A stretch of 64,000 nucleotides of DNA from positions 1,698,501 to 1,762,500 of the forward strand of contig NZ_AP014809.1 in the NCBI RefSeq assembly GCF_002355515.1, written 5' to 3'. Origin of the DNA: Methylorubrum populi (GTDB lineage Bacteria > Pseudomonadota > Alphaproteobacteria > Rhizobiales > Beijerinckiaceae). This document shows positions 27,337-42,339 of the stretch, piece after piece. The notes beneath the pieces are model-generated. The model had not been told where the DNA came from, did not search any database, and saw nothing but the letters and a program-made list of their open reading frames with translations. Numbering within the stretch: position 1 is the first letter of the stretch; the number at the start of each line of letters is the position of its first letter. The translations under genes and the position numbers were made by a program.

Positions 27337-28173
27337 TCACCCGATCGTGGTGCCGTAGCGGACGCCTTTCTCCTTGAGCCAGCGCCGGTAGGCCACAGAG
27401 GACGAGTCGGCGCGGGTCGGGATCTCGGCGCGGGGTTCCAGCGGCAGCAGAACCGGTCGCTGGTTCTCCAGGATGATGCGGTCCTGCAGGAAGATCACCT
27501 GCTGAAACGCGACGAGATCGGTGAGGCGGGAGGCGTCGTCGATCAGGAACATCACCGGATGGGCCCGGCAGCGATCGGGATCGAGGGGCTGCACGAACAG
27601 GCAGATGACGTCCCACCGGTTCGCCGCGTTGGGGCAGGTCTTGTACAGCATGGTCACGTGGGGCGTGGCGACGCGGTACTGGTACTGTGTCTCGATCCCG
27701 CCCTTGGCCGAGAAGGCCGCCTGAGGCTGGAAGAAGCGGCAATTGGTGGCCCAGACCTCGTCGACGTCGCGGCGGATCTCGGTGGTGTAGTGCAGCACCT
27801 CGGTGTGCGGCTCGGCGCCGAGGATGTCGGTGTGGACGAAGGGGAAGTGGGCCATGTCGAGGAAGTTCTCGATGATCCGCAGCCCGGAGGCGCGCAGGCC
27901 GACGGCGCCGCAGAGCACGTGGCGCCGGTCGTCCTCGTCGGCCTCGGGGATGGCGGGCGGCTCGGTCTCCGGGGCCCCCAGGCTGACCCAGACGCAGCCG
28001 TAACGCGTGCGCACCGGCAGTTCGCGCCCGGACGCCGTCCGCGCCGAGACCGGATCGCTCCCGGAGACGACGATCTCGGTGCCGAGGAGGCGTGTCCGCA
28101 AAGGGGCCTCGCGGCAGGCCTCGGTCGACCCGACGACGTACCAATCGTCCCGGATCACGGGTTCGAGTTCCAT
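27337..28173 (-). CDS. Rieske-less oxygenase catalytic subunit (NdmC-like), paralog 1
   Basis: Two hundred seventy-eight residues from ATG 28173 (GAGGGGAG about 8 bases upstream). The mononuclear-iron motif E-x3-D-x2-H-x4-H is intact in ENFLDMAHFPFVH (Glu102, Asp106, His109, His114), with a likely third ligand Asp231 in LQDRIILENQ. The N-terminal 100 residues keep a beta-rich, Rieske-like layout (DDWYVVGSTEACREAPLR, RYGCVWVSLG), but the two Cys-x-His/Cys-x2-His ligand pairs are absent. So it cannot hold a Rieske cluster and must get electrons from another protein. Such Rieske-less catalytic proteins are known as NdmC in caffeine-degrading Pseudomonas. It is the last gene of the BMP-transporter operon. 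Substrate unknown. Confidence 0.85.
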   Translation of the reverse strand: MELEPVIRDDWYVVGSTEACREAPLRTRLLGTEIVVSGSDPVSARTASGRELPVRTRYGCVWVSLGAPETEPPAIPEADEDDRRHVLCGAVGLRASGLRIIENFLDMAHFPFVHTDILGAEPHTEVLHYTTEIRRDVDEVWATNCRFFQPQAAFSAKGGIETQYQYRVATPHVTMLYKTCPNAANRWDVICLFVQPLDPDRCRAHPVMFLIDDASRLTDLVAFQQVIFLQDRIILENQRPVLLPLEPRAEIPTRADSSSVAYRRWLKEKGVRYGTTIG

Positions 28174-28242
28174 CGCAAGGCTCCCCTCAGGGCCGCGCGC
28201 CGCCGGCGGACGCGCCCGGCTCATTGCCCGATCACCGCCAGT

Positions 28243-29637
28243 TCATTGCCAGATCCGCGCCATCGTGGCGGCGTGCTCGGCGAGCAGCGCCTCGAGGTCG
28301 AGGTCGCAGAAGGCGCCGTCGGCGATGATCGGGCGTCCGTGGATGAAGCTGTGCGAGACCCGGAACGGCCCGCACATCACCATCGCGGCGAGCGGATCGC
28401 GCTGCGTGCCGGACAGGCCGAGCTGGTCGAGCTTCACCGCGATGAGATCCGCGCTCATGCCGGGGGCGAGATGGCCGATGTCGTCCCGGCCCAGCAGCCT
28501 CGCGCCGCCGCGGGTCGCCATGACCAGGGCTTCCCGCGCCGACAGGGCGCCCGGCGTGCCGCCGAAGCCGCCGCGGCCGCCGGGGGGTTCTGAGCCGTAG
28601 CGCGCCGGCGCCACGCGCTGGAGGAGCTGCGCCAGCCGCGCTTCGAGGAAGAGGTTCGAGGTGTCGTTCGAGGCGGAGCCGTCGACGCCGAGGCCGCAGG
28701 TCATGCCGGCATCGAGCATCTCGCGGATCTTGGCGATGCCCTGGCCGCAGCGCATGTTGGCGGAAGGGCAGTGCGTCATGCCGGTCCCGGTCTCGGCGAA
28801 GCGCCGGATCTCGCCGGAATCGAGGAAGATCGCGTGGGCGAACCACACGTCCGGCCCGGTCCAGCCCACCGATTCGGCGAAGGCGGCCGGCCGCATTCCG
28901 TAGGCCTCGCGGCACCAGACCTCCTCGTCGAGATCCTCGGCGAGATGGGTGTGGAGGTGGACGCCGTGGACGCGGGCGAGCGCCGCCGCCTCCCGCATCA
29001 GGCCCGGCGTCACCGAGAAGGGCGAGCAGGGGGCCAGCACGATGCGGGTCATCGCGTATCGGGCCGGGTCGTGGTGGGCGTGGATCAGCCGCTCGGCGTC
29101 CTTGAGGATGTCCGCCTCGCGCTCGACGCAGGAATCGGGGGGCAGCCCGCCCTGGCTCTGCCCGCGCGACATCGCTCCCCGCGCCGCGTGGAAGCGCAGG
29201 CCGATCCCGCGCGCCGCCGCGATCGTGGAATCGAGCGTGACGTCGTTGGGCCGGATGTAGAGGTGGTCCGAACTCGTGGTGCAGCCCGAGGCGATCAGCT
29301 CGGCCATCGCCACCCGGGCGGAGACGCTGATCGCCGCGTCGTCGAGGCGCGCCCAGATCGGGTAGAGCGTGGACAGCCACGTGAAGAGCGGCTCGTCCTG
29401 GACCATCACCCGGGTCAGGTTCTGGTACATGTGGTGATGCGTGTTCACCATGCCGGGCATCACGAGATGGCCGGACAGGTCGATCACCCGGTCGGCGGGA
29501 GTTGCGCCGAGCTCGGCATCGGTGCCGACGGCCTCGATCACGTGGTCGCGCAGGTAGAGGGCGCCGTCGGTGATTTCGCGGCCCCCGTCGTCGAAGGTGG
29601 CGAGGTGGGCGATGTGGCGCAGGAGCAGCGTCGGCAT
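28243..29637 (-). CDS. 8-oxoguanine deaminase-like amidohydrolase
   Basis: Four hundred sixty-four residues. Amidohydrolase metal sites are complete: NTHHHMYQNLTR, LHTHLAE, FAHAIFL and LGVDGSASND. Segments that set 8-oxoguanine deaminases apart from guanine or triazine hydrolases are well matched: PLFTWLSTLYPIWARL, GCTTSSDHLYIRPND, RGAMSRGQSQGGLPPDS, LAPCSPFSVTPGLMREAA, THCPSANMRCGQGI. It would convert 8-oxoguanine to urate plus ammonia, feeding the urate genes at 46-52 kb. It lies directly after the ABC permease (14-bp gap) and before oxygenase paralog 1. Substrate is inferred; isocytosine or another amino-heterocycle is possible. Confidence 0.78.
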   Translation of the reverse strand: MPTLLLRHIAHLATFDDGGREITDGALYLRDHVIEAVGTDAELGATPADRVIDLSGHLVMPGMVNTHHHMYQNLTRVMVQDEPLFTWLSTLYPIWARLDDAAISVSARVAMAELIASGCTTSSDHLYIRPNDVTLDSTIAAARGIGLRFHAARGAMSRGQSQGGLPPDSCVEREADILKDAERLIHAHHDPARYAMTRIVLAPCSPFSVTPGLMREAAALARVHGVHLHTHLAEDLDEEVWCREAYGMRPAAFAESVGWTGPDVWFAHAIFLDSGEIRRFAETGTGMTHCPSANMRCGQGIAKIREMLDAGMTCGLGVDGSASNDTSNLFLEARLAQLLQRVAPARYGSEPPGGRGGFGGTPGALSAREALVMATRGGARLLGRDDIGHLAPGMSADLIAVKLDQLGLSGTQRDPLAAMVMCGPFRVSHSFIHGRPIIADGAFCDLDLEALLAEHAATMARIWQ

Positions 29638-29651
29638 GGTCTCAGCGCCCC

Positions 29652-30587
29652 TCAGCGCACGTCGCGATGGTAGGGCAGGCCGAGGGCGGCCGGGGCCGCG
29701 AACCAGCCGCGCAGGCGCCGCCACGCCACCACCGGCAGGATGATGAACGCGACGGTGCCGAGATAGGGCAGCATCGAGAGGATCGCCGGCGCTACCGGCC
29801 AGCCCCGGGCCTGACCGACGAAGCCGAGCGCCGTGATGACGCCGAAGAGCAGTGCGGCGGCCACCGCCGTCAGCGGCCTGAAGCCGGCGAAGATGACGAG
29901 GGCCACGGCGATCCAGCCGCGGCCGGCGACGACGCCCTCCGACCAGGACGGCACGAAGGCCAGCGTCAGGTAGGCTCCCGCACCGCCCGCGAGGCTCGAT
30001 CCGAGGGCGACGTACCAGAACCGGATCGCCGCAACCGGGATGCCGGCGGCGTCCGCCGCGGCGGGACTCTCGCCCACCGCGCGCAGGTTCAGCCCGTGCC
30101 GGGTCCGGAACAGCAGGAGATGCAGCCCGATCGGCAGGACGATGTAGATCGCGTAGAGCAGCACGTTCTGCGAGAACAGCGCCGGCCCGAGCACCGGGAT
30201 GTCGGCGAGCCCCGGGACCACGACCTGCGGGAAGACGGCGGCGGCGGGGGCGCCGGCATAGGAGCGGCCGAGCGTCGCCGCGAGCCCGGAGCCGAGGAGC
30301 GTGAGGGCGAGACCGCACAGCACCTGGTTGGCCCGCAGCAGCACGGTGGCGGCGGCGAAGACGCAGCCGAAGGCGAACCCGACGCCCAGCGCCGCGACGA
30401 ATCCGAGGGCCGGGCTCGGCACCGCCGCCACGGTGGCGATACCCGTGAGCGCGCCCAGCGACATCAGCCCCTCGACGCCGAGATTGACCACGCCGACGCG
30501 CTCGGCGAGCACCTCGCCGAGCGCCGCGAGGGCGAGCACCCCGCCCGCTAGGAGCGCCGTGGACAGGATGCCGGTGATCAGATCCAA
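29652..30587 (-). CDS. BMP-type nucleoside ABC transporter permease 2
   Basis: Three hundred eleven residues, about nine membrane helices. Family motifs: ERVGVVNLGVEGLMSLGA (the NLGxEG signature of NupQ/YufQ-like permeases) and GLNLRAVGESPAAADAAGIP, the coupling loop. It pairs with the permease at 30612-31664 to form the channel for an imported nucleoside or base. Twenty-four bp separate it from that gene. Confidence 0.9.
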   Translation of the reverse strand: MDLITGILSTALLAGGVLALAALGEVLAERVGVVNLGVEGLMSLGALTGIATVAAVPSPALGFVAALGVGFAFGCVFAAATVLLRANQVLCGLALTLLGSGLAATLGRSYAGAPAAAVFPQVVVPGLADIPVLGPALFSQNVLLYAIYIVLPIGLHLLLFRTRHGLNLRAVGESPAAADAAGIPVAAIRFWYVALGSSLAGGAGAYLTLAFVPSWSEGVVAGRGWIAVALVIFAGFRPLTAVAAALLFGVITALGFVGQARGWPVAPAILSMLPYLGTVAFIILPVVAWRRLRGWFAAPAALGLPYHRDVR

Positions 30588-30611
30588 ATGATCGCCTCCA
30601 CGCGGGTGCCC

Positions 30612-31664
30612 TTAGCCCAGGATCCGGGTCCGGCGCACGGGCCGGTAATGCACGATCTCGTCGCCGACCGCCGTGAACAGCAGGATCAGGCCGGTGATGG
30701 CGAGCACGGTGCTGGTGTTCACGCCCTGCGTCTGCAGCACGATGCCGGCATTGAGGAGCGCCGCCATCAGCACGGCGCCCGCGATCACGCCGAGACAGGA
30801 GCCGCGGGCGAGCACCGCGACCATGATGCCGAGATAGCCGTAATTGTTCGAAATGCCGCCCTGCAGCCGGTGCACGGTGCCGGCGAGTTCGATGGTCCCG
30901 GCCAGCCCTGCGACCGCCCCCGAGAGCAGCATCACGGCGACGATGCGCGCCCGGACCGGGATGCCGGCATAGAGCGCCGCGCCGGGATTGGCGCCGGCGA
31001 CGCGCACCTCGTAGCCGAAGCGGGTGAAAGCGAGCAGCCCGGCCGCGAGGATCGCCACCGCGATCGCGGCGGGCAAGCCCCAGTGCAGGGTATCGCCCAG
31101 CGGCGGCAGTTCGGCGGGGATGCGCGCCGTGGTCGCCAGCGCCCGGCCCGAGGGATCGCGCCAGGGGCCGGTGCAGAGCCACGCGACCAGAAGGGCGGCG
31201 ACGAAGTTCAAGAGCAGCGTGGTGATGAGTTCGCTCACGCCCGCGAAGGCCCGGGCAAGCGTCGGCACCAGGATCCAGGCGGCGCCCCCGGCCGCCCCGG
31301 CGAGCGCCATCAGCGGCAGGACCCAGGCGTCGTCGCCGCCGGCATGGAGGCCGACCGCGGTCGCGGCCAGCGCGCCGGCGTTGAACTGGCCCTCGCCGCC
31401 GATGTTCCACAGGCCGATGCGCTGGGTCAGCGCCACCGCGATCCCGGTGAGGATCAGCGGCGTGACGAGCAGGCCGAGATCCTCCAGCCCCGCGACGGAT
31501 CCGAAGGCGGAGCCGATCACCTCGGCGCCGAGGCGCGCGGGCGCGAGGCCGGCGAGCGACAGGACCGCCGCGACGCAGGCGAGCGCCGCCAGGATCGCCC
31601 CGACCCGTCCGGCCAGGGCGGCGCCGGCCGGGACGGTCGGAACCCTCTGGAACCGCCAGCTCAT
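30612..31664 (-). CDS. BMP-type nucleoside ABC transporter permease 1
   Basis: Three hundred fifty residues. Contains the partner signatures RIGLWNIGGEGQFNAGAL and ELITTLLLNFVAALLVAWL, plus the coupling segment FGYEVRVAGANPGAALYAGI and NYGYLGIMVAVLARGSC, as in NupP/YufP permeases. Its ATG overlaps the stop of the ATPase gene (ATGA), so translation is coupled. Confidence 0.9.
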   Translation of the reverse strand: MSWRFQRVPTVPAGAALAGRVGAILAALACVAAVLSLAGLAPARLGAEVIGSAFGSVAGLEDLGLLVTPLILTGIAVALTQRIGLWNIGGEGQFNAGALAATAVGLHAGGDDAWVLPLMALAGAAGGAAWILVPTLARAFAGVSELITTLLLNFVAALLVAWLCTGPWRDPSGRALATTARIPAELPPLGDTLHWGLPAAIAVAILAAGLLAFTRFGYEVRVAGANPGAALYAGIPVRARIVAVMLLSGAVAGLAGTIELAGTVHRLQGGISNNYGYLGIMVAVLARGSCLGVIAGAVLMAALLNAGIVLQTQGVNTSTVLAITGLILLFTAVGDEIVHYRPVRRTRILG

Positions 31665-33250
31665 GCCCGCGCCCCCCGGCCACCCATCATCAGTCCCAGC
31701 GTCTCGACGTCCGCCTCGGCGGCGGGCATCACACCCATGATCCGTCCCTCGAACAGCACCGCCACCCGGTCGGCGAGCGCGAGGATCTCCTCCAGCTCCT
31801 CGGAGAAGAGCAGCACCGCCCTGCCCCGGTCGCGCAGCTCCGCGAGGTAGGAGAGCAGGGTGTCGATGGCGCCGACATCGAGCCCCCGGCTCGGATAGGC
31901 GGCGACCAGGACCCGCTCGGCGACGCGGATCTCGCGGCGGGCGACGAGGCGCTGCTGGTTCCCGCCCGACAGGTTGCGGATGGGCATGCCGAAATCCGGC
32001 ACCGCGACGGCGGCGTCGGCGGCGATGGTCCGGGCGAGGCGCGCCGCCGCCCAGGGCCGGAACAGGCCGCCGCCGCCGACGCGCGGGCCGGCATATTCCC
32101 GCAGCACCGCGTTGTCGGCGACGCTGAGGTCGGGGGCGAGGCCGCTGCGCAGGCGATCCTCCGGGATATGGCCGATGCCGGCGGCCGCGAAGGCCGCCGC
32201 ATCCGTCCGGGCCACAGGCCGGCCGTCGATCCGGACCGCCCCCCCCGCGACCCGGCGCATGCCGGTGACGACCTGGCTCAGCTCGCGCTGCCCGTTGCCG
32301 GCGACCCCCGCAATGCCCAGGATCTCGCCGCCATGCAGGGCGAGGGTGACGTCGCGCAGCGCCACGAGGCCGCGGTCGTCCCGCGCGCAGACCCGATCGA
32401 GTTCGAGCACCGGAGCCGCCGAGACCGGCGTGCCGGCCGCCCGCGGACGCGCCCTGCGCAGGGTGATGTCGTGGCCGACCATCAGGGCGGCGAGGCCGCG
32501 CTCGTCCGCGCCCGCGGCGGGGCGCGTCGCCACCTTCCGGCCCCCGCGCAGCACGCTGATCCGGTCGGCGATGGCGACGACCTCGTCGAGCTTGTGGCTG
32601 ATGAAGATCACCGCGTTTCCGGAGGCGCGGAACGCCCGCAGGGCCGCAAACAGATCTCGCGCCTCCGCCGGCGTCAGCACGGCGGTCGGCTCGTCGAGGA
32701 TCAGGAGGCGGGCGTCGCGGGCCAGAACCCGGAGGATCTCGACCCGCTGCTGCTCGCCGGCCGAGAGGTCGCCGACGACCGCGTCCGGCCGCACCGCGAG
32801 GTTGAAGCGCGCGGCGAGCGCCCGCGTGCGCGCTTCGAGCGCCGCCGCCGAGGCGCGCCAGGGCGTGCGCGACCAGCCGAGATGGATGTTCTCGGCCACC
32901 GTGAAGGCCGGCACCAGCTTGAAGTGCTGGTGCACCATGCCGGTCCCGGCACGGATCGCCGCCTGCGGCGAGGGCAGCGCGCGGGCGTAGCCGTCGAGGA
33001 TGATCGTGCCGGCATCGGGCTGGTAGATGCCGGTGAGGATGTTCATCAGGGTCGACTTGCCGGCCCCGTTCTCGCCGAGCAGGGCGTGGATCTCCCCTGG
33101 CATCACCGTGAGATCGACCGCGTCGTTGGCGAGCACGCCCGGAAACGCCTTGGTGATCCCCTGCAACTCGACGAGGGCGGGGGTGCCGGGCGGGATTGCG
33201 GGTGCGGCGCCCGCGCCCGTCCCGGGTGGGAACGCGAGCGGCACCCCCAT
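31661..33250 (-). CDS. BMP-type nucleoside ABC transporter ATPase (two nucleotide-binding domains)
   Basis: Five hundred twenty-nine residues with two ATPase domains. Domain 1: Walker A GENGAGKST, signature LSAGEQQRVEI, Walker B LLILDEPTAVLTP. Domain 2 has the usual degenerate Walker A of this family (GIAGVAGNGQRELS) but a good signature, LSGGNQQRLV. This architecture is that of YufO/NupO nucleoside importers and sugar importers; the neighbouring BMP-type binding protein decides for nucleosides. The start ATG shares one base with the upstream stop (TGATG). Confidence 0.92.
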   Translation of the reverse strand: MGVPLAFPPGTGAGAAPAIPPGTPALVELQGITKAFPGVLANDAVDLTVMPGEIHALLGENGAGKSTLMNILTGIYQPDAGTIILDGYARALPSPQAAIRAGTGMVHQHFKLVPAFTVAENIHLGWSRTPWRASAAALEARTRALAARFNLAVRPDAVVGDLSAGEQQRVEILRVLARDARLLILDEPTAVLTPAEARDLFAALRAFRASGNAVIFISHKLDEVVAIADRISVLRGGRKVATRPAAGADERGLAALMVGHDITLRRARPRAAGTPVSAAPVLELDRVCARDDRGLVALRDVTLALHGGEILGIAGVAGNGQRELSQVVTGMRRVAGGAVRIDGRPVARTDAAAFAAAGIGHIPEDRLRSGLAPDLSVADNAVLREYAGPRVGGGGLFRPWAAARLARTIAADAAVAVPDFGMPIRNLSGGNQQRLVARREIRVAERVLVAAYPSRGLDVGAIDTLLSYLAELRDRGRAVLLFSEELEEILALADRVAVLFEGRIMGVMPAAEADVETLGLMMGGRGARA

Positions 33251-34389
33251 CAGGCGCCGAGGCCCGTCACGCCCTCGATCGACCAGTCCCAGTTGTAGAG
33301 GTCGAGATCGCTCATGGTCTTGCCCGCCGCGACCCGGACCTTGCTCTGGCTGTCCCGGATCTCGCCGACGAACGGCGTGTACCCGCCGAGGATCTTTTCG
33401 CGCACGGCGTCGGCCTGCTTTGCGACGGCCTCGGGCACGGTCCGGCCCCAGGCGTCGCGGTCGACGCCGCCGCCCATCGGCAGGAGCGTGGTGCCCGGCG
33501 TCCATGTGCCGGCGATGCGCCGGCCCACCTGATCGACGTAGTACTTGCGCGAATCCACCACGATCGAGCTGACATAGGCGTCGGGCCCGAAGCGGCGCAT
33601 GTCGGTGTTCCACATCGCCGCCTTGAGGCCGCGCTGCTGCGCCACCTGAAGGTAGCCGGCCTCGTCCATGATGCCGAAGAGGAAGTCGCAGCCGTTGTTG
33701 GCGAGCGCGACGCCGGCCTGGGTCGCGGCCTGCGGATCGAACCAGGAATTGATCGTGATGACCTGCACGGTCGCCTCGGGCTTCACCGTGCGCGCGCCCA
33801 TCAGGAAGGCGTTGGTCGAGGAGAAGCACGAGGGCACCGGGAAGGAGGCGACGTAGCCGAGCTTGCCCGTCTTGCTCATCAGGCCGGCCGCGACGCCGAG
33901 CACGTAGGTCGGGTACCAGTGCGCGAAGTAGTACCAGCCGAGATTGTCCGCCGTGGTGCGGCCGTCGCATTCGAGGAAGCCGACCTTCCGCGAGCGCTTG
34001 GCGACGTCGGAGAAGAAGTCGCCGTAATTCGAGGTGGCGAAGACGAGGTTGGCGCCGTTCGAGACGAATTGCCGGAAGGTGCGCGCGGCGTCGGCGGAAT
34101 AGGGGATCGACTCGACGAACAGGGTCTTGGCCTGCGGGAAAGCGGCCTGCACCGCCTTCATTCCCTGGTCGTGACTCCAGGTCCAGCCCTCGTCGGTCAC
34201 CGGGCCGACATGTCCGAAGGCGATCACCGCATCCTTCTCGGGAACCGCCGGCAGCGGCGCCTGGGCCCGGGCCGGGCACAGTCCGGGCGGCAGGATCAGG
34301 CCGGCACCGAGACCGGCTCCAAGGCCGATTCCGAGGCCGAGCAGATGGCGGCGGCTCGGCAGGGCGGCATCGCGCATGTCATCGCTCAC
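33250..34389 (-). CDS. BMP-family substrate-binding protein (Tat-exported)
   Basis: Three hundred seventy-nine residues from GTG 34389, chosen for GAGGGAG eight bases upstream; ATG 34377 also fits. A twin-arginine signal (SRRHLLGLGIGLGAGLG) ends at PARAQA, suggesting export of a folded protein, and there is no lipobox Cys. The mature part is BMP/PnrA-like: VIAFGHVGPVTDEGWTWSHD, ANLVFATSNYGDF, LGYVASFPVPSCFSSTNAF, QVITINSWFDPQ, CDFLFGIMDEAGYL. Family members bind purine nucleosides or, in some cases, bases. First gene of the leftward operon. Confidence 0.9.
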   Translation of the reverse strand: MSDDMRDAALPSRRHLLGLGIGLGAGLGAGLILPPGLCPARAQAPLPAVPEKDAVIAFGHVGPVTDEGWTWSHDQGMKAVQAAFPQAKTLFVESIPYSADAARTFRQFVSNGANLVFATSNYGDFFSDVAKRSRKVGFLECDGRTTADNLGWYYFAHWYPTYVLGVAAGLMSKTGKLGYVASFPVPSCFSSTNAFLMGARTVKPEATVQVITINSWFDPQAATQAGVALANNGCDFLFGIMDEAGYLQVAQQRGLKAAMWNTDMRRFGPDAYVSSIVVDSRKYYVDQVGRRIAGTWTPGTTLLPMGGGVDRDAWGRTVPEAVAKQADAVREKILGGYTPFVGEIRDSQSKVRVAAGKTMSDLDLYNWDWSIEGVTGLGA

Positions 34390-34474
34390 GGCACTGGCTC
34401 CCTCTCGGATCGCCGCCCGAATCCGGGTGGCGGGAGTGACCGCAGCCTCTCCGGCAGAACGTCCGGCGGAGGGC

Positions 34475-34528
34475 GTCGGCAAGAACGCGGCAAGATCCGA
34501 CGCGGCAAGATCCGGCGCGGCAAGAACC
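34475..34528. repeat. Four spaced 12-bp repeats in a divergent promoter region
   Basis: Copies of gcggcaagatcc or close variants at 34475-34486, 34487-34498, 34502-34513 and 34517-34528 (periods 12, 15 and 15). They lie about 85-140 bp before the BMP binding-protein start. Such evenly phased repeats may be regulator-binding iterons; no protein is known. Confidence 0.6.
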
Positions 34529-34707: not shown

Positions 34708-34751
34708 GAGGTGGCGCGAAACGAGGCATCGCGAGCCGGGAGGGCACGACC

Positions 34752-35033
34752 ATGGGCGGTGCAGCCGTCATGACCTTCACCGGACGGTTCCGGCCCGCGA
34801 GCTTCCGGGCCTTCGCGGAGGATCGCGCCCGCCTCCTCGCCTTGGACGCGGCCTGGGGCGAGGCGGCGCCCGACCGAATCGTCGTCGCCGTCGCGGGCCA
34901 GCGCGACTTCATCGATGCGTTCGAGATGGCCTGCAGCCTCGGGCCCATGGATTGCCTCGTCCACGAGATCGAGCGGCGCGAAACGGATTCGGCCGGGATC
35001 GCCACCTTCGAGCGGGAACATGTCGATGGATGA
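34752..35033 (+). CDS. Acylphosphatase-like small protein
   Basis: Ninety-three residues. The layout FTGRFRPASFRAFAEDRARL, followed by RIVVAVAGQRDFIDAFEMAC and SLGPMDCLVHEIERRE, follows the acylphosphatase alpha/beta fold. The catalytic Arg (SFRAF) is kept, but the phosphate loop residues (usually QGVGFR) are changed to RPASFR and the expected catalytic Asn is not evident, so ordinary acylphosphatase activity is doubtful. Its stop overlaps the start of the Rieske protein, so the two are translationally coupled and probably work together. An ATG at 34770 (MTFTG) is an alternative start. Confidence 0.6.
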   Translation: MGGAAVMTFTGRFRPASFRAFAEDRARLLALDAAWGEAAPDRIVVAVAGQRDFIDAFEMACSLGPMDCLVHEIERRETDSAGIATFEREHVDG

Positions 35034-35676
35034 GCCGGACGGTTGGTACGCGGTCGCGCTGGGCGCCGATATCGAGCCCTCGACCTCGGCGGGAACGCGC
35101 CTGTTCGGCCACGAACTCGTGGTCTGGCGCGACGCCGCCGGCGCCGTGCATGTCTGGGAGGATCGCTGCCCGCATCGCGGCATGCGCCTGAGCTTCGGCT
35201 TCGTGCGCGGCGATCACATCGCCTGCCTCTATCACGGCTGGCGCTACGACGCCGCCGGCCAGTGCCGCTTCATCCCGGCCCACCCGGATCTCGCGGTGAG
35301 CCCGATGATCCGGACGCGGACCTTTCCGTGTCGGGAGCGGGCCGGGCTGATCTGGGTCCGCTGGGGAAGCCCGGCCGACGACGCCCCGGAGGCCGCGCCC
35401 GACGAGGCCGCCCCCGTCTCGCCCCTGCGCAGCCTCTACCTCGACGCGCCGGCCGCGCGCCTCGCGGCGGCGCTCGGCGGCGCCGGGTCCGATGGGCTCG
35501 CCCGCCTCGATCTCGCCGGATCGCCCGTCCTCGTCGCGGTGCAGCCGCTCGCCGCGGAGGCGAGCGCGGCACACATCGTGGTTCCGGCCGCGCCCGAAGC
35601 GCCAACAGCCGATCTCGCCCGCCTCGCCGCCGCCTGCATCGCCCTGCGCCGGACCATCGAGGGAGCCGCGCCGTGA
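35026..35676 (+). CDS. Stand-alone Rieske [2Fe-2S] protein
   Basis: Two hundred sixteen residues. The ligand pairs are complete: Cys48-x-His50 in EDRCPHRGMRLSFG and Cys67-x2-His70 in HIACLYHGWRYD, with oxygenase-type surroundings (GWYAVALGADIEP, CRERAGLIWVRWG). After about residue 115 there is no mononuclear-iron motif, only about 100 Ala/Leu-rich residues. It thus looks like the electron-transfer half of a Rieske oxygenase on its own gene, the complement of the Rieske-less catalytic proteins at 27337-28173 and 41479-42339. Start 35026 has GGGAA seven bases upstream; ATG 35020 is possible. It overlaps both neighbours. Confidence 0.85.
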   Translation: MDEPDGWYAVALGADIEPSTSAGTRLFGHELVVWRDAAGAVHVWEDRCPHRGMRLSFGFVRGDHIACLYHGWRYDAAGQCRFIPAHPDLAVSPMIRTRTFPCRERAGLIWVRWGSPADDAPEAAPDEAAPVSPLRSLYLDAPAARLAAALGGAGSDGLARLDLAGSPVLVAVQPLAAEASAAHIVVPAAPEAPTADLARLAAACIALRRTIEGAAP

Positions 35677-36302
35677 GCCTTCGCCTCTACGACTACGAAC
35701 TCGACGAGAACGGCTACAAGGTCCGGCTCGCGCTGGGGGCGCTCGGGCTCGACTGCGAGACCGTGGCGGTCGACATGGTCCCGGGCGCCGAGCAGACCCG
35801 CTCCCCGCTGATCGATCTGAACCCCCTCGGCACGCTCCCGATCCTCGTCGATGGCGGCACGGTGCTGCGGGAGGCCGAGGCGATCCTCGCCTATCTGGCG
35901 CGCCGCTACGATCCCGCCGGGACGTGGCTGCCGCAGGAGCCGGCGGCCTTCGGCGAAACCCTGATGTGGCTCGCCTTCGCCACGCGCGAATTGCACGCGG
36001 CGAGCCTCGCGCGGCGCGCGGCCCTGTTCGACCATCCGGGCGACGGGCCGGAGCTGGAGAGCCGGTCGCGGGCGGCGTTCCGAGCCATGGAGGACCATAT
36101 CGTCCTGCGCGGGCTCTCGGGCGCGGGCTGGTTCGCCGGCACGGGCCTGACCATCGCCGATCTCGCCCTGTTCCCGGCCTTCGCCCTCAGCCGGGACTTC
36201 GGGATCGACCACGAGGCCTATCCGGGCCTGCGCCGCTGGAGCCGCCGCGTCCGCGGCCTGCCGGGCTTCCGCACCATGCCCGGCATTCCCGACTATCACT
36301 GA
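35673..36302 (+). CDS. Glutathione S-transferase-fold protein (NdmE-like candidate)
   Basis: Two hundred nine residues from a GTG that overlaps the Rieske stop (GTGA). N-terminal thioredoxin-like domain: LRLYDYELDENGYKVRLALG, LNPLGTLPILVDGGTVLREA, EAILAYLARRYDP. C-terminal helical domain: WFAGTGLTIADLALFPAFAL. Overall a normal-sized cytosolic GST. The coupling to the Rieske gene, and the presence of Rieske-less oxygenase genes nearby, recall NdmE, the GST-like structural partner of NdmC. A conventional conjugating GST cannot be excluded. Confidence 0.85.
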   Translation: MSLRLYDYELDENGYKVRLALGALGLDCETVAVDMVPGAEQTRSPLIDLNPLGTLPILVDGGTVLREAEAILAYLARRYDPAGTWLPQEPAAFGETLMWLAFATRELHAASLARRAALFDHPGDGPELESRSRAAFRAMEDHIVLRGLSGAGWFAGTGLTIADLALFPAFALSRDFGIDHEAYPGLRRWSRRVRGLPGFRTMPGIPDYH

Positions 36303-36320
36303 CGGCCGGACAGGACGCCC

Positions 36321-37244
36321 TTGGACCCGCACCGCCTCGGCCTCGTCTCGACGCGGCTGCACTACTTCCAGCTCGTCGCCCGCGCGGGCTCGATCCGGCA
36401 GGTCGCCCGCGCGCTCAACGTCGCGCCCTCGTCGATCAGCCGTGTGATCGTCCAGCTCGAGGAGGATCTCGGCACCAAACTGTTCGAGCGCGCCCGGCAG
36501 CGCCTGCGCCTCACCAGCGCGGGCGAACTCCTGCTCTACCGGGCGCGGCTGAGCCTGGGCGAGCTCAGCCGGGCCTGCACCGAGGTCGGCGAGTTGCAGG
36601 GCCTGCACCGCGGCACCGTCACCGTCGCCCTGGTCGAGAGCGTCGCCCGCGGCCTGTTCCCGGCGGTGATGGGAGCGTTCTGGGAGCGGCATCCGGGGAT
36701 CGCGGTCGATGTCCAGGTGATGCGATCGACGGAGGCGGCCGCGGCGATCGCGGACGGCGAGTGCGAGATCGCCCTCGGCTTCGACCTGCGCGCCCCGCGG
36801 GGGGCGCAGCGCCTCGCGGCGGCCCTGGTCTCGATCGGCGCGCTGATGCATCCGGCGCACCCGCTCGCGGGCCGTCAGGCCCTGCGGATGTTCGATCTGG
36901 CCCAAGAGGCGGTCATCCTCTCGGATACGAGCCTGACCCTCGGCGCCACGATCGAGGAAGCCCTGGCCGACGCCTCCGCCCATGTGGGGCGGCGTGTCAC
37001 CACCAACTCCGTCGGGACGATGGTGGCGCTGGCGAGCGCGGGCGCCGGGATCTCGCTCCAGGCCCGGCTCGGCGTCGAGGCCGAGATCGCCGAGGGCCGC
37101 CTCGTCTTCGTGCCCCTGCGCGATCCGAAGCTGCGCCCGCGTCGGCTCGTGCTCGTGGCGCGCAACCGCGACCGGCTCTCGGACGCGGGCGCGGCGCTCG
37201 CGGCGATGCTGGCCCGTGCCGTCGAGGCCCAGAGCCAGGCCTGA
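36321..37244 (+). CDS. LysR-family transcriptional regulator
   Basis: Three hundred seven residues from a TTG start with AGGAC upstream. HTH: LHYFQLVARAGSIRQVARAL then NVAPSSISRVIVQLEEDLGT. The effector domain follows (GTVTVALVESVARGLFPAVM, AVILSDTSLTLGATIEEALA, NSVGTMVALASAGAGISLQA). It is 18 bp after the GST gene in the same direction, so it probably reports on and controls this island; the divergent region 34390-34751 is the likely target. Confidence 0.9.
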   Translation: MDPHRLGLVSTRLHYFQLVARAGSIRQVARALNVAPSSISRVIVQLEEDLGTKLFERARQRLRLTSAGELLLYRARLSLGELSRACTEVGELQGLHRGTVTVALVESVARGLFPAVMGAFWERHPGIAVDVQVMRSTEAAAAIADGECEIALGFDLRAPRGAQRLAAALVSIGALMHPAHPLAGRQALRMFDLAQEAVILSDTSLTLGATIEEALADASAHVGRRVTTNSVGTMVALASAGAGISLQARLGVEAEIAEGRLVFVPLRDPKLRPRRLVLVARNRDRLSDAGAALAAMLARAVEAQSQA

Positions 37245-37380
37245 TGGAGGCCTGATGCGGACCCGATCCGGGCGTGAGCCGAGCTGTTGCGTGGAGCGCA
37301 CCGGACTGAGCGAAAAACGGCGGCTATTCAGGACATCGTCGGGCGTCGATCCTGCGATCCATGATGGAGCCCGACACCCC

Positions 37381-37881
37381 ATGACGCCTGGAGCCGTCGA
37401 CGCCGTGATCCGCGGCCTGAAGCGGGCGGGCGTCTCGATCGTCTGCTACCTGCCGGATTCCCTGTTCAAGGAGCTCTACCCGGCCCTGGACGCGGATCCG
37501 GACCTGCGCACCATCCCGGTCACCAATGAGGGCGAGGGCGCGGCGATCTGCGGCGGCGTCTTCCTGTCGGGCAAGCGCGCCGTGCTGGTGATGGAGAATT
37601 CCGGCCTGCGCGCCTCGGTCGAGCCGCTCGCCCGCATGGGCCTCGGCGCCGGCATCCCGGTGGTGATGCTGATGAGCTACCGGGGCGATCTCGGCGAGAA
37701 CAACTGGTGGGCGATCCCGCACGGCATCACCATGGAGCCGGTGCTGCAGGCCCTGCGCATCCCCTACCGGGTGGTGCGCGAGGAGGCTGCCATCGAGACG
37801 GCCATCGCGGACGCCTACGCCTCGGCCTACGCCTCCTACTACCACGCGGCGGTGGCGCTGGGCGGGAGCATCGTACGATGA
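37381..37881 (+). CDS. ThDP-dependent decarboxylase alpha subunit (sulfopyruvate decarboxylase-like)
   Basis: One hundred sixty-six residues. This is a ThDP pyrimidine-binding half like ComD: VDAVIRGLKRAGVSIVCYLP, IPVTNEGEGAAICGGVFLSG (with the conserved Glu that activates ThDP), AVLVMENSGLRASVEPLARM, PVVMLMSYRGDLGENNWWAI. The MSYRG-GE motif is typical of sulfopyruvate/phosphonopyruvate decarboxylases. It forms the active site with the beta subunit encoded next (ATGA overlap). Coenzyme M synthesis genes are not visible nearby, so the substrate may be another 2-oxo acid. Confidence 0.82.
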   Translation: MTPGAVDAVIRGLKRAGVSIVCYLPDSLFKELYPALDADPDLRTIPVTNEGEGAAICGGVFLSGKRAVLVMENSGLRASVEPLARMGLGAGIPVVMLMSYRGDLGENNWWAIPHGITMEPVLQALRIPYRVVREEAAIETAIADAYASAYASYYHAAVALGGSIVR

Positions 37882-38519
37882 GCGCGGATGGCGATGCGAC
37901 GGCCCGGCCGATGACCCGCTACGCCTGCATGCAGCGCCTCGCGGCCCGCCTGCGGGACGAGCTCGTGATCCTGTCCCTCGGGGGCAGCGTGGACGAGTGG
38001 TACAACGCGGCGCCGCACATGCGCGCCGCCAGCCTGTTCCAGCAGCAGCTCGGCTGCGTCACGCCCCAGGCCTTCGGCCTCGCCGCCGGGCTGCCGCACC
38101 GGCGCATCGTCTCCCTCGACACCGACGGGGGGCTGCTGTTCAACCTCGGCATCCTCGCCACCCTGGGCAACGAGCGGCCGAGAAACCTCTTCGTCGTCGT
38201 CTGGGACAACCAGTGCTACCAGTCGATCGGCGGCCCGCCCACGCACACCGCCAAGGGCCGTGTCGACCTCGCGGCGATCGCCCGCGGCGCCGGCCTCGAA
38301 CACGCCTACACGGTGCACGACCTCGACAGCTTCGAGCGGCACTGCGCCGAAGGGCTTGCGGCCGAGGCTCCCTATCTCGTCGTTGCCAAGGTCGCGGGCA
38401 CCGTCCAGCCCGGCATCCGGCGCAAACACAGCGACGGGCGCGAGGACAAGTACATCTTCGTGCGCCACGTGGAGGCGAGCGAGGGCGTCACCATCATGGG
38501 CCCGAGCGAGCACAACTGA
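37878..38519 (+). CDS. ThDP-dependent decarboxylase beta subunit (sulfopyruvate decarboxylase-like)
   Basis: Two hundred thirteen residues. This is the ThDP pyrophosphate-binding half, ComE-like: VTPQAFGLAAGLPHRRIVSL, then DTDGGLLFNLGILATLGN and NLFVVVWDNQCYQSIGG, giving the Asp-Gly and Asn that hold Mg-diphosphate. The Gly-Asp-Gly motif reads Thr-Asp-Gly here. The C-terminal KHSDGREDKYIFVRHVEASE is less typical. Its start overlaps the alpha stop, and the GMC oxidoreductase starts directly after its stop, so this is one operon. Confidence 0.82.
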   Translation: MSADGDATARPMTRYACMQRLAARLRDELVILSLGGSVDEWYNAAPHMRAASLFQQQLGCVTPQAFGLAAGLPHRRIVSLDTDGGLLFNLGILATLGNERPRNLFVVVWDNQCYQSIGGPPTHTAKGRVDLAAIARGAGLEHAYTVHDLDSFERHCAEGLAAEAPYLVVAKVAGTVQPGIRRKHSDGREDKYIFVRHVEASEGVTIMGPSEHN

Positions 38520-38520
38520 G

Positions 38521-40077
38521 ATGCTGCGCGACGCCGCCGACGCCCTGGAGGCCGCCTACGACGTGATCGTGGCCGGGGCGGGCACCGGCGGATGCGTCGT
38601 CGCGGGCCGGCTCGCGGCGGCGGGGCTGTCCGTGCTGCTGGTGGAAGCCGGGCCGCCGGACACCGCCGACCCCGCCATCGCCGATGCCGGGGCCTGGGTC
38701 GGGCTCCTCGGTGGTCCCTGCGACTGGGGCTACGCCTACGCGCCCGCCCCCGAGGTGGCCGGCCGCGCCATCGCGATCCCGCGCGGGCGGGTGCTCGGCG
38801 GGTCGAGCAGCATCAACGCCATGCTGTGGAACCGGGGCCACCCCTCCGACTACGACGGCTGGGCGGCCGCCGGAGCGACGGGCTGGGATTTCGCGTCCGT
38901 GCTCCCGTACTTCCGCCGGGCGGAGGATTGGGAAGGCGGCGAGACGCCCCTGCGCGGGGCGGGCGGTCCGCTGCGCATCGAGACCTCGCACGATCCCCAC
39001 CCCGTCGCGCGCGCCCTGCTCGCGGCCGCGGCCGAACGCGGCATGCCGGTGCTGGCCGATGCCAACGGGCCGAACGATGCCGGGGCGGCGCTCGCCAACC
39101 TGAACAAGCGCGGGGCCCGGCGCTGGAGCGTGGTCGACGGCTATATCCGGCCGCTCGCGGGCGACCCGAAGCTGACGATTCTCACCGGCGCGACGGTCCT
39201 CGGCCTCCTGGTCTCCGGCTCCGTCTGCTCCGGCCTGCGGCTCGGCCTCGAGCGCGGGATCGCCGAGGTGCGGGCCCGCCGCGAGGTGGTGCTGACATTG
39301 GGCGCGATCGGCACGCCTGCGCTGCTGATGCGCTCCGGCATCGGCGCTCCGGCCGACCTCGCCCGCCTCGGCATCGCCCCGCGCCACGCGCTGCCGGGCG
39401 TCGGGCAGAACCTCCAGGACCATCCCCTGCTGATGGGGATCAACTTCTCCGCCCGCGCGCCGCTGGGGCCGGTGCGCGACAACGGCGGCGGGGCGCAGCT
39501 CAACTGGCGCAGCCGGCCGGGCCTGCGCGCGCCGGACCTCCACGCCTTCGTGGTCCAGGGGCCCCATGCCGGCCCCGAGATCGCCGCAACCGCCGACCTG
39601 TCCGGTCCGGTCTTCGCCGTCTCGCCGGGGCTGATGGGCTCGACCAGTGTCGGCAGCCTGCGCCTGGAGAGCGCCGAGCCGGACGGCCCGATCACGCTGC
39701 GGCCGAATTTCCTGGCCGAGCCCGCCGACCGCGCGGCGCTGGCCGGCGCCGTCGACACGATCCTCGACCTCGCCGACACGGCCGCCTTCCGCGACCTCGG
39801 CGCCGTGCCGCTGACCCCGGCCCGAAGACTCGGCCGATCCGAGGCGGACGCCTTCGTGGCCCGGGCCTGCTCCACCTTCTTCCACACCTGCGGCACCTGC
39901 GCGATGGGCACGGGCCCGGCCGCCGTGGTCGATCCGGCCCTGAACCTGCATGGCGTGGCCGGCCTGCGTATCGCCGACGCCTCGGTGATCCCGACGATCC
40001 CGACCGGCAACACGCAGGCCGCCGTGGTGATGATCGCCGAGCGCGCCGCCGACCTGATCCGGAATGCCGCAGGATGA
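38521..40077 (+). CDS. GMC-family FAD-dependent oxidoreductase
   Basis: Five hundred eighteen residues. The FAD Rossmann motif is DVIVAGAGTGGCVVAGRLAA; GMC signature 1 is GRVLGGSSSINAMLWNRGHP; signature 2 is GAIGTPALLMRSGIG; the C-terminal active site has FFHTCGTCAMG (catalytic His near 455) and IPTGNTQAAVVMIAERAADL. Closest in style to choline or alcohol dehydrogenases that oxidise an alcohol to an aldehyde. It follows the decarboxylase beta gene by one base and overlaps or abuts the amidohydrolase gene. Substrate unknown. Confidence 0.88.
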   Translation: MLRDAADALEAAYDVIVAGAGTGGCVVAGRLAAAGLSVLLVEAGPPDTADPAIADAGAWVGLLGGPCDWGYAYAPAPEVAGRAIAIPRGRVLGGSSSINAMLWNRGHPSDYDGWAAAGATGWDFASVLPYFRRAEDWEGGETPLRGAGGPLRIETSHDPHPVARALLAAAAERGMPVLADANGPNDAGAALANLNKRGARRWSVVDGYIRPLAGDPKLTILTGATVLGLLVSGSVCSGLRLGLERGIAEVRARREVVLTLGAIGTPALLMRSGIGAPADLARLGIAPRHALPGVGQNLQDHPLLMGINFSARAPLGPVRDNGGGAQLNWRSRPGLRAPDLHAFVVQGPHAGPEIAATADLSGPVFAVSPGLMGSTSVGSLRLESAEPDGPITLRPNFLAEPADRAALAGAVDTILDLADTAAFRDLGAVPLTPARRLGRSEADAFVARACSTFFHTCGTCAMGTGPAAVVDPALNLHGVAGLRIADASVIPTIPTGNTQAAVVMIAERAADLIRNAAG

Positions 40078-40084
40078 GCCCGAC

Positions 40085-41482
40085 ATGAGCCAAGAGCCCA
40101 TCAGCCAAGACCGGATCCTCGCCGCCGACCTCGTCGTGACGATGGACCCGGACAACCGCGTCCTCACCGACGGCGCCGTCCTGATCCAGGGGAGCCGGAT
40201 CGGCGCGGTCGGCCCCCGCGAGGCGATCGCCGCCGCGAATCCGGGCGCGGCCGTCGTGCGTCTGCCCGACCGGCTGCTGATGCCGGGCCTCGTCAACGCG
40301 CACATGCATTCGGGCTTCCTGCGCGGCACCGCCGAGCATCTCCCGGTCTGGGACTGGCTGCGGCTGCACATCAACCCGATGCACCGGCTGCTGCGCCCCG
40401 AGGAGGCGGAGGCCGCCTCCTGGCTCTGCTACGCCGAGGGGCTTCTCTCCGGCAGCACGACGATGCTCGACATGTGGCGCTTCATGGAGGGCAGCGCGCG
40501 GGCCGCCGAGACCCTGGGCAACCGCCTCGTCTGCGTGCCCTATGTCGGCGAGCATCCCGACTACGACTATTTCGACCGCCTCGACGACAACGAGAGGCTG
40601 ATCGAGAGCCGGCACGGCAGCGCGAACGGGCGCATCAGCGTCTGGGTCGGGCTGGAGCACCTGTTCTACGCCGACGAGGCTGGGCAGCGGCGCGCCATCG
40701 AGATGGCCCAGCGCCACCGCACCGGCTTCCACACCCATTGCAGCGAGGCCGAAGTCGAGGTCGCCGAGTTCGAGCAGCGCTACGGCTGCCGGGCGATGTT
40801 CGCCCTCGACCGGCTCGGCTTCTTCGAGACGCCGCACGCGCTCATCGCCCACGCGGTCTGGCTCGACGCCGCCGAGATCGAGCTGATCGCCGCCCGCGGC
40901 GTCGCGGTGGCGCACAACCCCGTCAGCAACATGAAGCTGGCGAGCGGCATCGCGCCGGTCGAGGCGATGCTGAAGGCCGGCGTCGCGGTCGGTCTCGGCA
41001 CCGACGGCGAGAAGGAGAACAACAACCTCGACGTGTTCGAGGAGATGAAGGCCGCCTCGCTGCTCGGCAAGCTCAAGACCCTCGACGCGGCGGCCCTCGA
41101 TTCCTGGGAGGCGCTGCGGATGGGAACGATCCTGGGCGCGAAGGCGCTCGGACTCGACCGTGAGATCGGCTCCCTCGAACCGGGCAAGCGCGCCGACCTG
41201 ATCGCGATCCGCACCGACACGCCGCGGATGACGCCGCTCTTCGGCGACGGCCCCTGGTTCAACCTCCAGCACAACCTCGTCCACGCGGTGCGGGGCTCGG
41301 ATGTCGACGTGACCATGGTCGACGGCGTCGTGGTCGTCGAGGACGGCCGCCTCAAGACCGCCGACCTGCGCGCCCTGATCGACCATGTCCGCGGCCTCGC
41401 GCCGGGCCTGTTCGAGCGCCGCGCGGCGTGGCTCGCCGAGAACGAGACCGGCTCCGTCCAGTGGACCGGGCCCGGCCGATGA
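40085..41482 (+). CDS. ATZ/TRZ-type amidohydrolase
   Basis: Four hundred sixty-five residues from ATG 40085 (AGGATGA upstream; ATG 40064 also possible). Metal-binding motifs are VNAHMHSGFLRGTAEHLPVW, GFHTHCSEAEVEVAEFE, LIAHAVWLD, AHNPVSNMKLASGI and LGTDGEKENNNLDVFEEM. This is the family of S-adenosylhomocysteine/methylthioadenosine, guanine and triazine deaminases. It differs clearly from the 8-oxoguanine deaminase-like protein at 28243-29637, so the island has two separate deaminases or ring hydrolases. The stop overlaps the next start (ATGA). Confidence 0.85.
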   Translation: MSQEPISQDRILAADLVVTMDPDNRVLTDGAVLIQGSRIGAVGPREAIAAANPGAAVVRLPDRLLMPGLVNAHMHSGFLRGTAEHLPVWDWLRLHINPMHRLLRPEEAEAASWLCYAEGLLSGSTTMLDMWRFMEGSARAAETLGNRLVCVPYVGEHPDYDYFDRLDDNERLIESRHGSANGRISVWVGLEHLFYADEAGQRRAIEMAQRHRTGFHTHCSEAEVEVAEFEQRYGCRAMFALDRLGFFETPHALIAHAVWLDAAEIELIAARGVAVAHNPVSNMKLASGIAPVEAMLKAGVAVGLGTDGEKENNNLDVFEEMKAASLLGKLKTLDAAALDSWEALRMGTILGAKALGLDREIGSLEPGKRADLIAIRTDTPRMTPLFGDGPWFNLQHNLVHAVRGSDVDVTMVDGVVVVEDGRLKTADLRALIDHVRGLAPGLFERRAAWLAENETGSVQWTGPGR

Positions 41483-42339
41483 AGACCGACGACCGGGTGG
41501 CCCTCGACGAATGGTACGCCGTCGAGACCGCGACGGCCGTGACCGCGGCCCCCGTCGTCACGCGCCTCCTCGGCCAGGACATCGTCTGCGACCGGCTGCC
41601 GGACGGGTCGCCGCGGGTGCGCGAGCGCCTGGCCGATGGGTTCGGGCCGCCGCTTCCGGTGCGCGAGCGCTACGGCTGCCTCTGGACCACCCTCGGGCAC
41701 CCGAACCGCGACGTGGTCGCGATCACCGAAGCCGACGAGGCGGACCGCCGCCACGTCCCCTGCGGCTGGGTGAAGATGCGCACCTCCGGCCCGCGCGTGG
41801 TCGAGAACTTCCTCGACATGGCCCATTTCCCCTTCGTCCACACCGACATCCTCGGCGCCGAGCCGAACACCGAGGTGCCGGCCTACGCCTCCGAGATCCG
41901 CCGCGACGTCGACGAGGTCTGGGCGACGAATTGCAGCTTCTTCCAGCCCCGCATCGCCGCGACCGAGACGGAGGGCGATTTCGTCCGCCTGACCTACCGC
42001 GTGCCCTCGCCCTTCGTGGTGATGCTCTACCGGGTCTGCCCGAGCGCTCCCGACCGCCTCGACGCCATCGCCCTGTTCATTCAGCCGATGGAGGAGGAGC
42101 TGTGCCGGGCCCAGCCCGTGATGTACCTCGTGGATTCCTGCTCGACCCACACGGCGCTGCTGAACTTCGAGCAGGTGATCTTCCTGCAGGACCGCATCAT
42201 CGTCGAGAACCAGCGCCCCCTGAGGCTGCCGCTGGAGCCCCGTCACGAGATCCCGACGCGGGCCGACAAGTCCTCCGTGGTCTACCGGCGCTGGCTCAAG
42301 GAGAAGGGGCTGCGCTTCGGCACGGTGGGGCACGGATGA
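41479..42339 (+). CDS. Rieske-less oxygenase catalytic subunit (NdmC-like), paralog 2
   Basis: Two hundred eighty-six residues. Intact iron site ENFLDMAHFPFVH (Glu109, Asp113, His116, His121), likely third ligand Asp238 in LQDRIIVENQ, and no Rieske Cys/His pairs in the N-terminal domain. It is clearly related to paralog 1: both share HFPFVHTDILGAEP, EIRRDVDEVWATNC and YRRWLKEKG near the C-terminus. The substrate pocket region (paralog 2 about 150-180) differs, so the two may act on different positions or substrates, or pair as a hetero-oligomer. Translationally coupled to the amidohydrolase (ATGA); the molybdenum hydroxylase gene follows after 73 bp. Confidence 0.85.
   Translation: MKTDDRVALDEWYAVETATAVTAAPVVTRLLGQDIVCDRLPDGSPRVRERLADGFGPPLPVRERYGCLWTTLGHPNRDVVAITEADEADRRHVPCGWVKMRTSGPRVVENFLDMAHFPFVHTDILGAEPNTEVPAYASEIRRDVDEVWATNCSFFQPRIAATETEGDFVRLTYRVPSPFVVMLYRVCPSAPDRLDAIALFIQPMEEELCRAQPVMYLVDSCSTHTALLNFEQVIFLQDRIIVENQRPLRLPLEPRHEIPTRADKSSVVYRRWLKEKGLRFGTVGHG

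Follow-up and report, generated by a model that had tools for sequence, protein, structure and literature searches.

Rieske oxygenases (ROs) normally carry both of their metal sites, the Rieske [2Fe-2S] cluster and the mononuclear iron, in one chain, which makes electron transfer between the two hard to dissect; an Asp of the family has a role in electron transfer across subunits. Both sites share one intact polypeptide in SxtT and GxtA (SxtDIOX), which catalyse hydroxylation, and one chain in the methylxanthine demethylases NdmA and NdmB. In three-component ROs, such as carbazole 1,9a-dioxygenase, a separate [2Fe-2S] Rieske protein delivers the electrons, but the oxygenase keeps its own Rieske domain and the ferredoxin, of about 100 residues, has no relic of a catalytic domain. 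NdmA and NdmB are listed as an alpha3alpha'3 assembly (PMC12445004), and NdmCDE of Pseudomonas putida CBB5 is a 7-methylxanthine N7-demethylase (PMC4408171), likewise described as N-demethylating in PMC10380055, where it is reported as a 3:3:3 complex of about 360 kDa; its structure is called unsolved by a 2026 paper (PMC13237722), and ndmCDE-like clusters in 18 further organisms are attributed to Summers et al. 2013 (per PMC4408171). Here we describe a gene cluster of Methylorubrum populi, lying in a stretch of 64,000 nucleotides (G000:C1:1698501-1762500, part of a 5.9 Mb genome; hereafter the window), that resembles NdmCDE in its Rieske-less catalytic protein, its separate Rieske domain, its purine context and its counterpart of the GST-fold (glutathione S-transferase) protein that NdmCDE requires.

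Taking all parts together, we consider it likely that the cluster encodes a split RO, in which complementary losses from one alpha subunit have left a Rieske protein (Rie, open reading frame (ORF) P0003) to feed Rieske-less catalytic proteins (CatA and CatB, jointly Cat) in the oxidation of purines. Its components are the following (aa, amino acids; pLDDT, predicted local distance difference test).

27337..28173, minus strand: CatA, Rieske-less catalytic subunit, 278 aa (Pfam VanA_C)
27970..28173, minus strand: relic Rieske domain of CatA, residues 1-68, ligand lobe deleted (hhalign)
27832..27870, minus strand: iron motif of CatA, E102-x3-D106-x2-H109-x4-H114, with D231 as third ligand (alignment of 205 sequences)
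34752..35033, plus strand: AcpL, acylphosphatase-fold protein without the catalytic Asn, 93 aa (PF00708, E 0.0032, below the curated cut-off)
35026..35676, plus strand: Rie, Rieske subunit, 216 aa, C48-x-H50...C67-x2-H70 (Pfam Rieske, E 7.5e-23; AlphaFold2 pLDDT 91.8)
35377..35673, plus strand: putative collapsed catalytic domain of Rie, residues 118-216, without iron ligands (fold match)
35673..36302, plus strand: GST-fold subunit, NdmE-like, with D11, G14 and A68 at the positions compared (Pfam GST_N/GST_C)
41479..42339, plus strand: CatB, second Rieske-less catalytic subunit, 286 aa, iron motif at 41803-41841 (VanA_C, E 1.7e-14)

The two proteins with an E-x3-D-x2-H-x4-H motif and no Rieske ligands that the first-pass annotation had picked out are indeed encoded at these positions and strands, as are Rie and the GST, and the motif is conserved among their relatives. 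CatA and CatB, which are 61% identical, both match VanA_C in the Pfam scan, and the Rieske model matches neither. We aligned 205 Cat sequences, comprising both window proteins, 120 database relatives of CatA and sequences from the fetched loci, after dropping three matches within intact ROs and any match of 60 bits or less; here and for Rie, long Variovorax and NdmD-type chains were trimmed to their Cat or Rie portion before counting. D106 (the bridging Asp), H109, H114 and D231 are invariant (205/205), position 102 is E in 203 sequences and D in two, and the C-x-H...C-x2-H pair occurs in none of the 205. Cat proteins have therefore kept the 2-His-1-carboxylate triad and the bridging Asp, a motif for which Rie has no equivalent. 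The relic at the start of CatA aligns with the Rieske domain of the Rie family (hhalign 98.3%, E 2e-14), bridging a deletion of some 46 residues that includes the ligands. In the Cat tree, CatB sits in a separate clade of 11 rows.

Rie had been proposed to carry the Rieske ligands without the iron motif, and this holds. Rieske is the sole Pfam model that matches it, no catalytic model does, and C48, H50, C67 and H70 are all kept in the 183 aligned Rie sequences, from which the truncated L019 and two rows without the second Cys (L018_Rie_6564 and L035_Rie_4525) were excluded. The window protein is 99% identical to one from Methylorubrum rhodesianum. When compared using VIA-align, as were all our models, the predicted structure of Rie has a whole-length RO-alpha fold, with tied scores for GxtA (17.9) and NdmA (17.1), and the ferredoxin structure 5bok covers only residues 5-114. 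A Rieske-type ferredoxin would consist of about 100 residues and the Rieske domain alone, whereas Rie has 216 and a second, catalytic-domain-like domain; unlike in an ordinary alpha subunit, each of the proteins carries one metal site. As modelled, Rie is thus not a ferredoxin; it has the complete fold of an oxygenase alpha subunit, in which the catalytic domain has collapsed. Since it has this fold, the Cat and Rie types look as though a single ancestor had degenerated twice, each time in the opposite half, and we infer their common ancestry by duplication.

The case for a collapsed domain rests on the fold match and on NdmD-type proteins (e.g. L029:9853-11610), in which the segment between Rieske domain and reductase matches the collapsed domain of Rie (hhalign 96%) and also the Cat domain (88%, E 3e-6). 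In some genomes the NdmD-type Rieske half and the following segment align with nearly the full length of the window Rie (6-216, 6-215). Judging from these profile matches, the NdmD segment looks like the same collapsed domain.

Small Rieske proteins at two other loci (L018:6564-6965 and L035:4516-5049) have their second Cys ligand replaced by D or G. The operons there also carry an intact RO, a Rieske-less cat gene, a GST gene and a VanB reductase, and perhaps represent a further stage of disassembly, with a mixed ring that includes the intact RO.

The co-occurrence of the components was followed in 297 genomes of the order, with cut-offs of E<=1e-35 for CatA and E<=1e-24 for Rie matches. CatA matches were found in 50 genomes; in G277, G317, G351 and G381 the Cat and Rieske matches share a frame and overlap, and these four were therefore counted as intact ROs, leaving 46. 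Rie matches were found in 52 genomes: those 46, the four just counted as intact ROs, and two without a Cat match, G354 and G433, whose Rie matches fall within open frames 467 and 533 aa long that we likewise took as intact ROs. Every genome with a Rieske-less Cat thus has a Rie partner (46/46; Fisher p 4e-55, kinship ignored), and in the 45 fetched clusters the nearest Cat and Rie midpoints lie a median of 859 bp and at most 8.3 kb apart. A GST gene is present in all fetched clusters except L160 (44/45), or 45 of 46 with the window. By the length of Rie, the 46 divide into 15 NdmD-type Rieske-reductase fusions and 31 split forms; across every locus examined, fused proteins have 554-588 aa and free Rie 177-257 aa, the truncated L019 aside.

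A similar picture emerges from other records. Among the matches listed for the first related loci (at least 13), cat, Rie and GST stand together in 11, with L019 lacking a GST match and L020 all three. Plasmid records of P. putida, Klebsiella and Sinorhizobium carry cat, a Rieske-reductase and GST, and in Klebsiella the fusion matches the ferredoxin domain deposited for NdmD. A Rhizobium plasmid record holds Rieske, cat, GST, amidohydrolase and importer genes; one of Paracoccus (L034) holds Rieske, cat, GST, a VanB reductase, an importer, an acylphosphatase and 8-oxoguanine deaminase. On a Variovorax plasmid (L032:6989-8803) it is a Rieske-less cat that is joined to a VanB-type reductase, the reverse of NdmD, where the Rieske domain is the fused part. 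In Lichenihabitans, cat lies near the start of the record, and neither a Rieske nor a GST gene was found in the 14 kb seen. Class-wide sampling with P0003 matched 90 of 240 genomes and proved too broad, as the matches listed were mostly in frames longer than 340 aa, probably intact ROs. The separate parts, which recur in many related bacteria beside genes for purine import and breakdown, suggest that a relative of the bacterial caffeine demethylase is widespread yet has hardly been described. By title and abstract, we found neither the split form nor AcpL with an RO in our searches of open PMC papers, although Summers et al. 2013 may mention split forms.

At seven loci (L031, L155, L162 and L164-L167), two different Rieske-less cat genes accompany one NdmD-type fusion and one GST gene, an arrangement that parallels CatA plus CatB in the window.

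Set against NdmCDE, which releases formaldehyde as it N7-demethylates 7-methylxanthine, the window has an NdmC-like Rieske-less iron-site protein and an NdmE-like GST partner. However, the Rieske domain of NdmD is fused to a flavin/[2Fe-2S] (FMN/NADH/plant-ferredoxin) reductase, whereas Rie is a free protein in a cluster without a reductase, and AcpL is part of the window form but gives no strong match in the 15 fused-type genomes. Since the Rieske-reductase fusion is absent, we regard the system, by analogy, as a sister variant that would work like NdmCDE, not as a member. New here are the alpha fold of Rie, the order-wide co-occurrence, the AcpL component and the reading of the NdmD segment. 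The original observation of a disassembled RO linked to a GST is confirmed, and the interpretation given to it is partly supported; the substrate and reaction then proposed are plausible. Neither the collapsed domain of Rie nor the AcpL gene had figured in that interpretation.

The Rie and GST genes are coupled, as had been noted, the stop of the one and the start of the other overlapping in GTGA at 35673-35676. We compared the GST copies at the Ser/Cys positions of the N-terminal active-site loop and at the glutathione-binding Ser, which we take to be the catalytic positions. The residues D11, G14 and A68 of the window copy are a sign of variation at these sites and not in themselves of lost activity: other split copies vary (S11 in 26/47, C14 in 24/47), whereas NdmD-type copies have S11 in 17/17 and C14 in 16/17.

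Upstream, the AcpL gene overlaps the start of Rie by 8 nt. Acylphosphatases rely on a catalytic Arg and Asn. AcpL can be aligned with ordinary members (PF00708), and the Paracoccus copy passes the Pfam cut-off that the window copy does not reach, but it has a motif of its own, LID-x2-E-x2-C-x-LGP. The ordinary Arg, found in 6/6 homologues, is kept in 5/42 AcpL sequences, the window copy among the five; the Asn, also present in 6/6, is outside the three commonest residues in AcpL and is Glu in the window. Because both residues are mostly lost, AcpL is probably not an enzyme of the acylphosphatase kind.

AcpL follows the split form closely. An iterated profile found it in 29/31 split and 0/15 fused clusters of the order sample, and across all loci of the Rie tree it accompanies 43/47 split rows (missing in L017, L032, L136 and L168) and 0/18 fused ones. 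A genome-wide search, with a model of 22 aligned members built from the same clusters in which AcpL was counted, gave at least 72 bits in 30 genomes, every one split (30/31), and in 0/15 fused and 0/251 other genomes (0/266 together), the next matches reaching at most 52.5 bits; four of the 30 matches run across a stop codon. As exceptions, G249 has its copy on another contig and G463 has none. In a wider sample of 398 genomes, eight reached E<=1e-14, four known and four further; all four further ones carry cat, Rie and GST in the fetched stretch, with L202 probably the same record as L016.

Where the electrons come from is less evident from the cluster. The claim that an NdmD-type reductase is absent was confirmed genome-wide, as none of the seven Rieske matches coincides with any of the seven NAD_binding_1 matches. 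The window contains no NAD_binding_1 match, and an all-against-all ORF scan of 45 split loci, inspected by eye, revealed no further iron-sulfur or flavin-reductase family common to eight or more of them, the one exception being a family that resembles short-chain dehydrogenases/reductases, in nine; the rule by which the scan chooses ORFs is simple, and since AcpL itself was caught in only 24/45, genes may be missed. Within the reach of these searches, we rejected a dedicated reductase near the cluster. Since no Rieske and NAD_binding_1 matches coincide and 29 of the 31 split clusters (the window included) lack a VanB-like gene in the stretch examined, the donor probably acts in trans. One of the seven NAD_binding_1 places is VanB-like over its entire length and lies beside another RO (L022/L174); this gene at L174 is a candidate electron donor.

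From these elements we propose the following scheme. An ancestral alpha subunit with Rieske and mononuclear-iron domains would have given two protein types with complementary halves lost, CatA and CatB retaining the iron site and a gutted Rieske shell, and Rie retaining the [2Fe-2S] cluster and an iron-free collapsed shell. A flavin/[2Fe-2S] reductase encoded elsewhere would bring electrons from NAD(P)H to Rie, which would dock at the site of the missing Rieske lobe of Cat, beside the invariant bridging Asp106, and pass them to the Cat iron for activation of O2. The retention of the bridging Asp in a protein without its own cluster suggests that an external Rieske domain docks at the usual place. 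GST and AcpL would probably be non-catalytic assembly subunits, and a single Rie/GST/AcpL module would be common to CatA and CatB. Most likely, a substituted purine would be imported and undergo oxidative N-dealkylation (or C-H hydroxylation), giving products for the deaminases, for xanthine dehydrogenase and for the urate pathway. Of all this, the components, the complementary loss of the two metal sites, the co-occurrence, AcpL and the lack of a Rieske-reductase fusion come directly from the computations, whereas common ancestry, complex, electron path, docking site, sharing in trans, reaction and substrate are inferred. In G515, G336 and G530 the CatB cluster is on another contig (L170-L172), where the 18 kb fetched contain neither a Rie nor a GST match; each genome has a single Rie match (E<=1e-24), beside CatA and GST. 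A single Rie/GST module shared by the two catalytic subunits would be the simplest explanation. More tentatively, reciprocal degeneration may have turned a whole oxygenase subunit into a mere carrier of electrons and left a notch in Cat into which the Rie cluster docks, with one module shared by several interchangeable catalytic subunits, even across loci, and with the non-enzymatic AcpL in place of the fused reductase as adaptor for a general reductase; docking in the notch is consistent with C3 symmetry and the published 3:3:3 stoichiometry of NdmCDE. As the metal sites appear to lie in different proteins, one could titrate, mutate or swap the electron donor without touching the acceptor, and the reverse. 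The system also suggests how NdmD may be read and how the NdmCDE architecture could be approached more simply, and adds a system-specific fourth component. As the Cat tree has long branches and few, distant outgroups, we make no claim as to whether the split or the fusion came first.

Several results weigh against the split-RO reading. Sequence proof for the collapsed domain is difficult: against Cat, hhalign gives 62% (E 7e-5) over 20 columns, falling to 29% (E 6e-4) with the free forms alone, and the Rie relic has no match to six intact ROs (0.1%, E 0.52). The model of CatA is moderate (pLDDT 71), with residues 110-125, 149-158 and 224-254 below 50. The correlation of AcpL with the split form does not reflect many events, since just one or two independent evolutionary pairs on the Rie tree separate the forms, and the near-absence of VanB-like genes from split clusters also counts here. 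Finally, the closest solved enzymes by sequence are SxtT-type hydroxylases, not demethylases: SxtT and GxtA are the nearest solved relatives of Rie and CatA by sequence and of CatA by fold, although we know of no GST or AcpL as part of these enzymes. A split oxygenase might hydroxylate a C-H bond of a purine- or guanidine-like compound, or oxidise such a compound in some other way, in place of N-demethylation. We hold this to be rather unlikely, given that the nearest system by gene content, NdmCDE, is an N7-demethylase (PMC4408171), and that fold scores tied between GxtA and NdmA, like RO-structure ranks in general, say little on the reaction.

The other alternatives fare worse. That CatA and CatB are fed by the Rieske domain of an intact oxygenase in a mixed ring, with Rie in another role, is improbable for the window: its cluster holds no intact RO, the nearest further Rieske match lying about 10 kb past the window end, and aligned Rie proteins keep all four ligands. 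Mixed rings may nevertheless occur in the subgroup of L018 and L035, where an intact RO lies ahead of a cat gene and the second Cys ligand of the small Rieske protein is gone. Relatives of Rie are named Rieske (2Fe-2S) protein or ring-hydroxylating ferredoxin subunit in their sources, and other Rieske proteins exist in the genome, as one would expect if Rie were an ordinary soluble ferredoxin, encoded nearby by chance, that feeds another oxygenase. This is still less probable and was rejected on the basis of its whole-length RO-alpha fold and its constant presence close to cat; in NdmD-type clusters, moreover, its counterpart is fused to the reductase. CatA and CatB could also be seen as decayed paralogues with no oxygenase function, for they lack a Rieske cluster, but the invariance of the iron ligands and bridging Asp, together with the 4,244 relatives found at E<=1e-10, some of which may be intact ROs, led us to reject such pseudogenes as extremely improbable.

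The genes around the split RO point to purines. The cluster also contains:

28243..29646, minus strand: 8-oxoguanine deaminase (NCBIfam NF006055, 611.6 bits, cut-off 532)
29652..34482, minus strand: two ATP-binding cassette (ABC) permeases, an ABC ATPase and a BMP-family substrate-binding protein, a putative purine/nucleoside importer (locus conservation)
36321..37244, plus strand: LysR regulator (Pfam)
37246..38519, plus strand: two-subunit thiamine pyrophosphate (TPP) enzyme, sulfopyruvate/phosphonopyruvate decarboxylase-like, approximate starts (TIGR03845, TIGR03846 and TIGR03297, all below cut-offs)
38515..40077, plus strand: GMC oxidoreductase, approximate start (PF00732, PF05199)
40064..41482, plus strand: TRZ/ATZ-type amidohydrolase, probable deaminase (Pfam Amidohydro_1; NCBIfam below cut-offs)
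42386..46152, plus strand: xanthine dehydrogenase-like, a fusion of flavin (FAD) and molybdenum parts (42386-45634) and a [2Fe-2S] subunit (45631-46152) (Pfam; pucD 728 bits, below 784)

Urate oxidase, a polysaccharide-deacetylase/OHCU-decarboxylase fusion and ureidoglycolate lyase (Pfam/NCBIfam) are also present. The importer genes are conserved beside Rie, GST and cat in L013-L015 and others, and their counterparts in L030, L031 and L034 are annotated as parts of a BMP family ABC transporter. Among 30 fetched split clusters, 16 have at least three importer parts and 11 an amidohydrolase match above 150 bits. A substituted purine, already the favoured substrate in the first-pass annotation, is our best guess in view of this context; its demethylation at nitrogen is plausible, and the step may be N-demethylation as in NdmCDE or hydroxylation as in SxtT/GxtA.

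From 36321 to 46152, the LysR regulator, the two-part TPP decarboxylase-like enzyme, the GMC oxidoreductase, the amidohydrolase, CatB and xanthine dehydrogenase form a sub-cluster that recurs in L014, L015, L130, L170-L172 and L200, with the GMC gene weak or unmatched in some. Perhaps a side chain on the CatB substrate gives rise to a 2-oxo acid or an alcohol.

About 10 kb past the window end, at around 1772559, L173 (G000:C1:1762501-1781000) contains an RO with both parts matched, near a further amidohydrolase, ABC genes and an oxygenase that by eye resembles the 2-oxoglutarate/Fe(II) type. The amidohydrolase next to CatA in M. zatmanii (L010:3260-4585) is just 37% identical to the 8-oxoguanine deaminase of the window, and CatA has diverged more there (81%) than CatB (94%), a possible sign of a shift in substrate.

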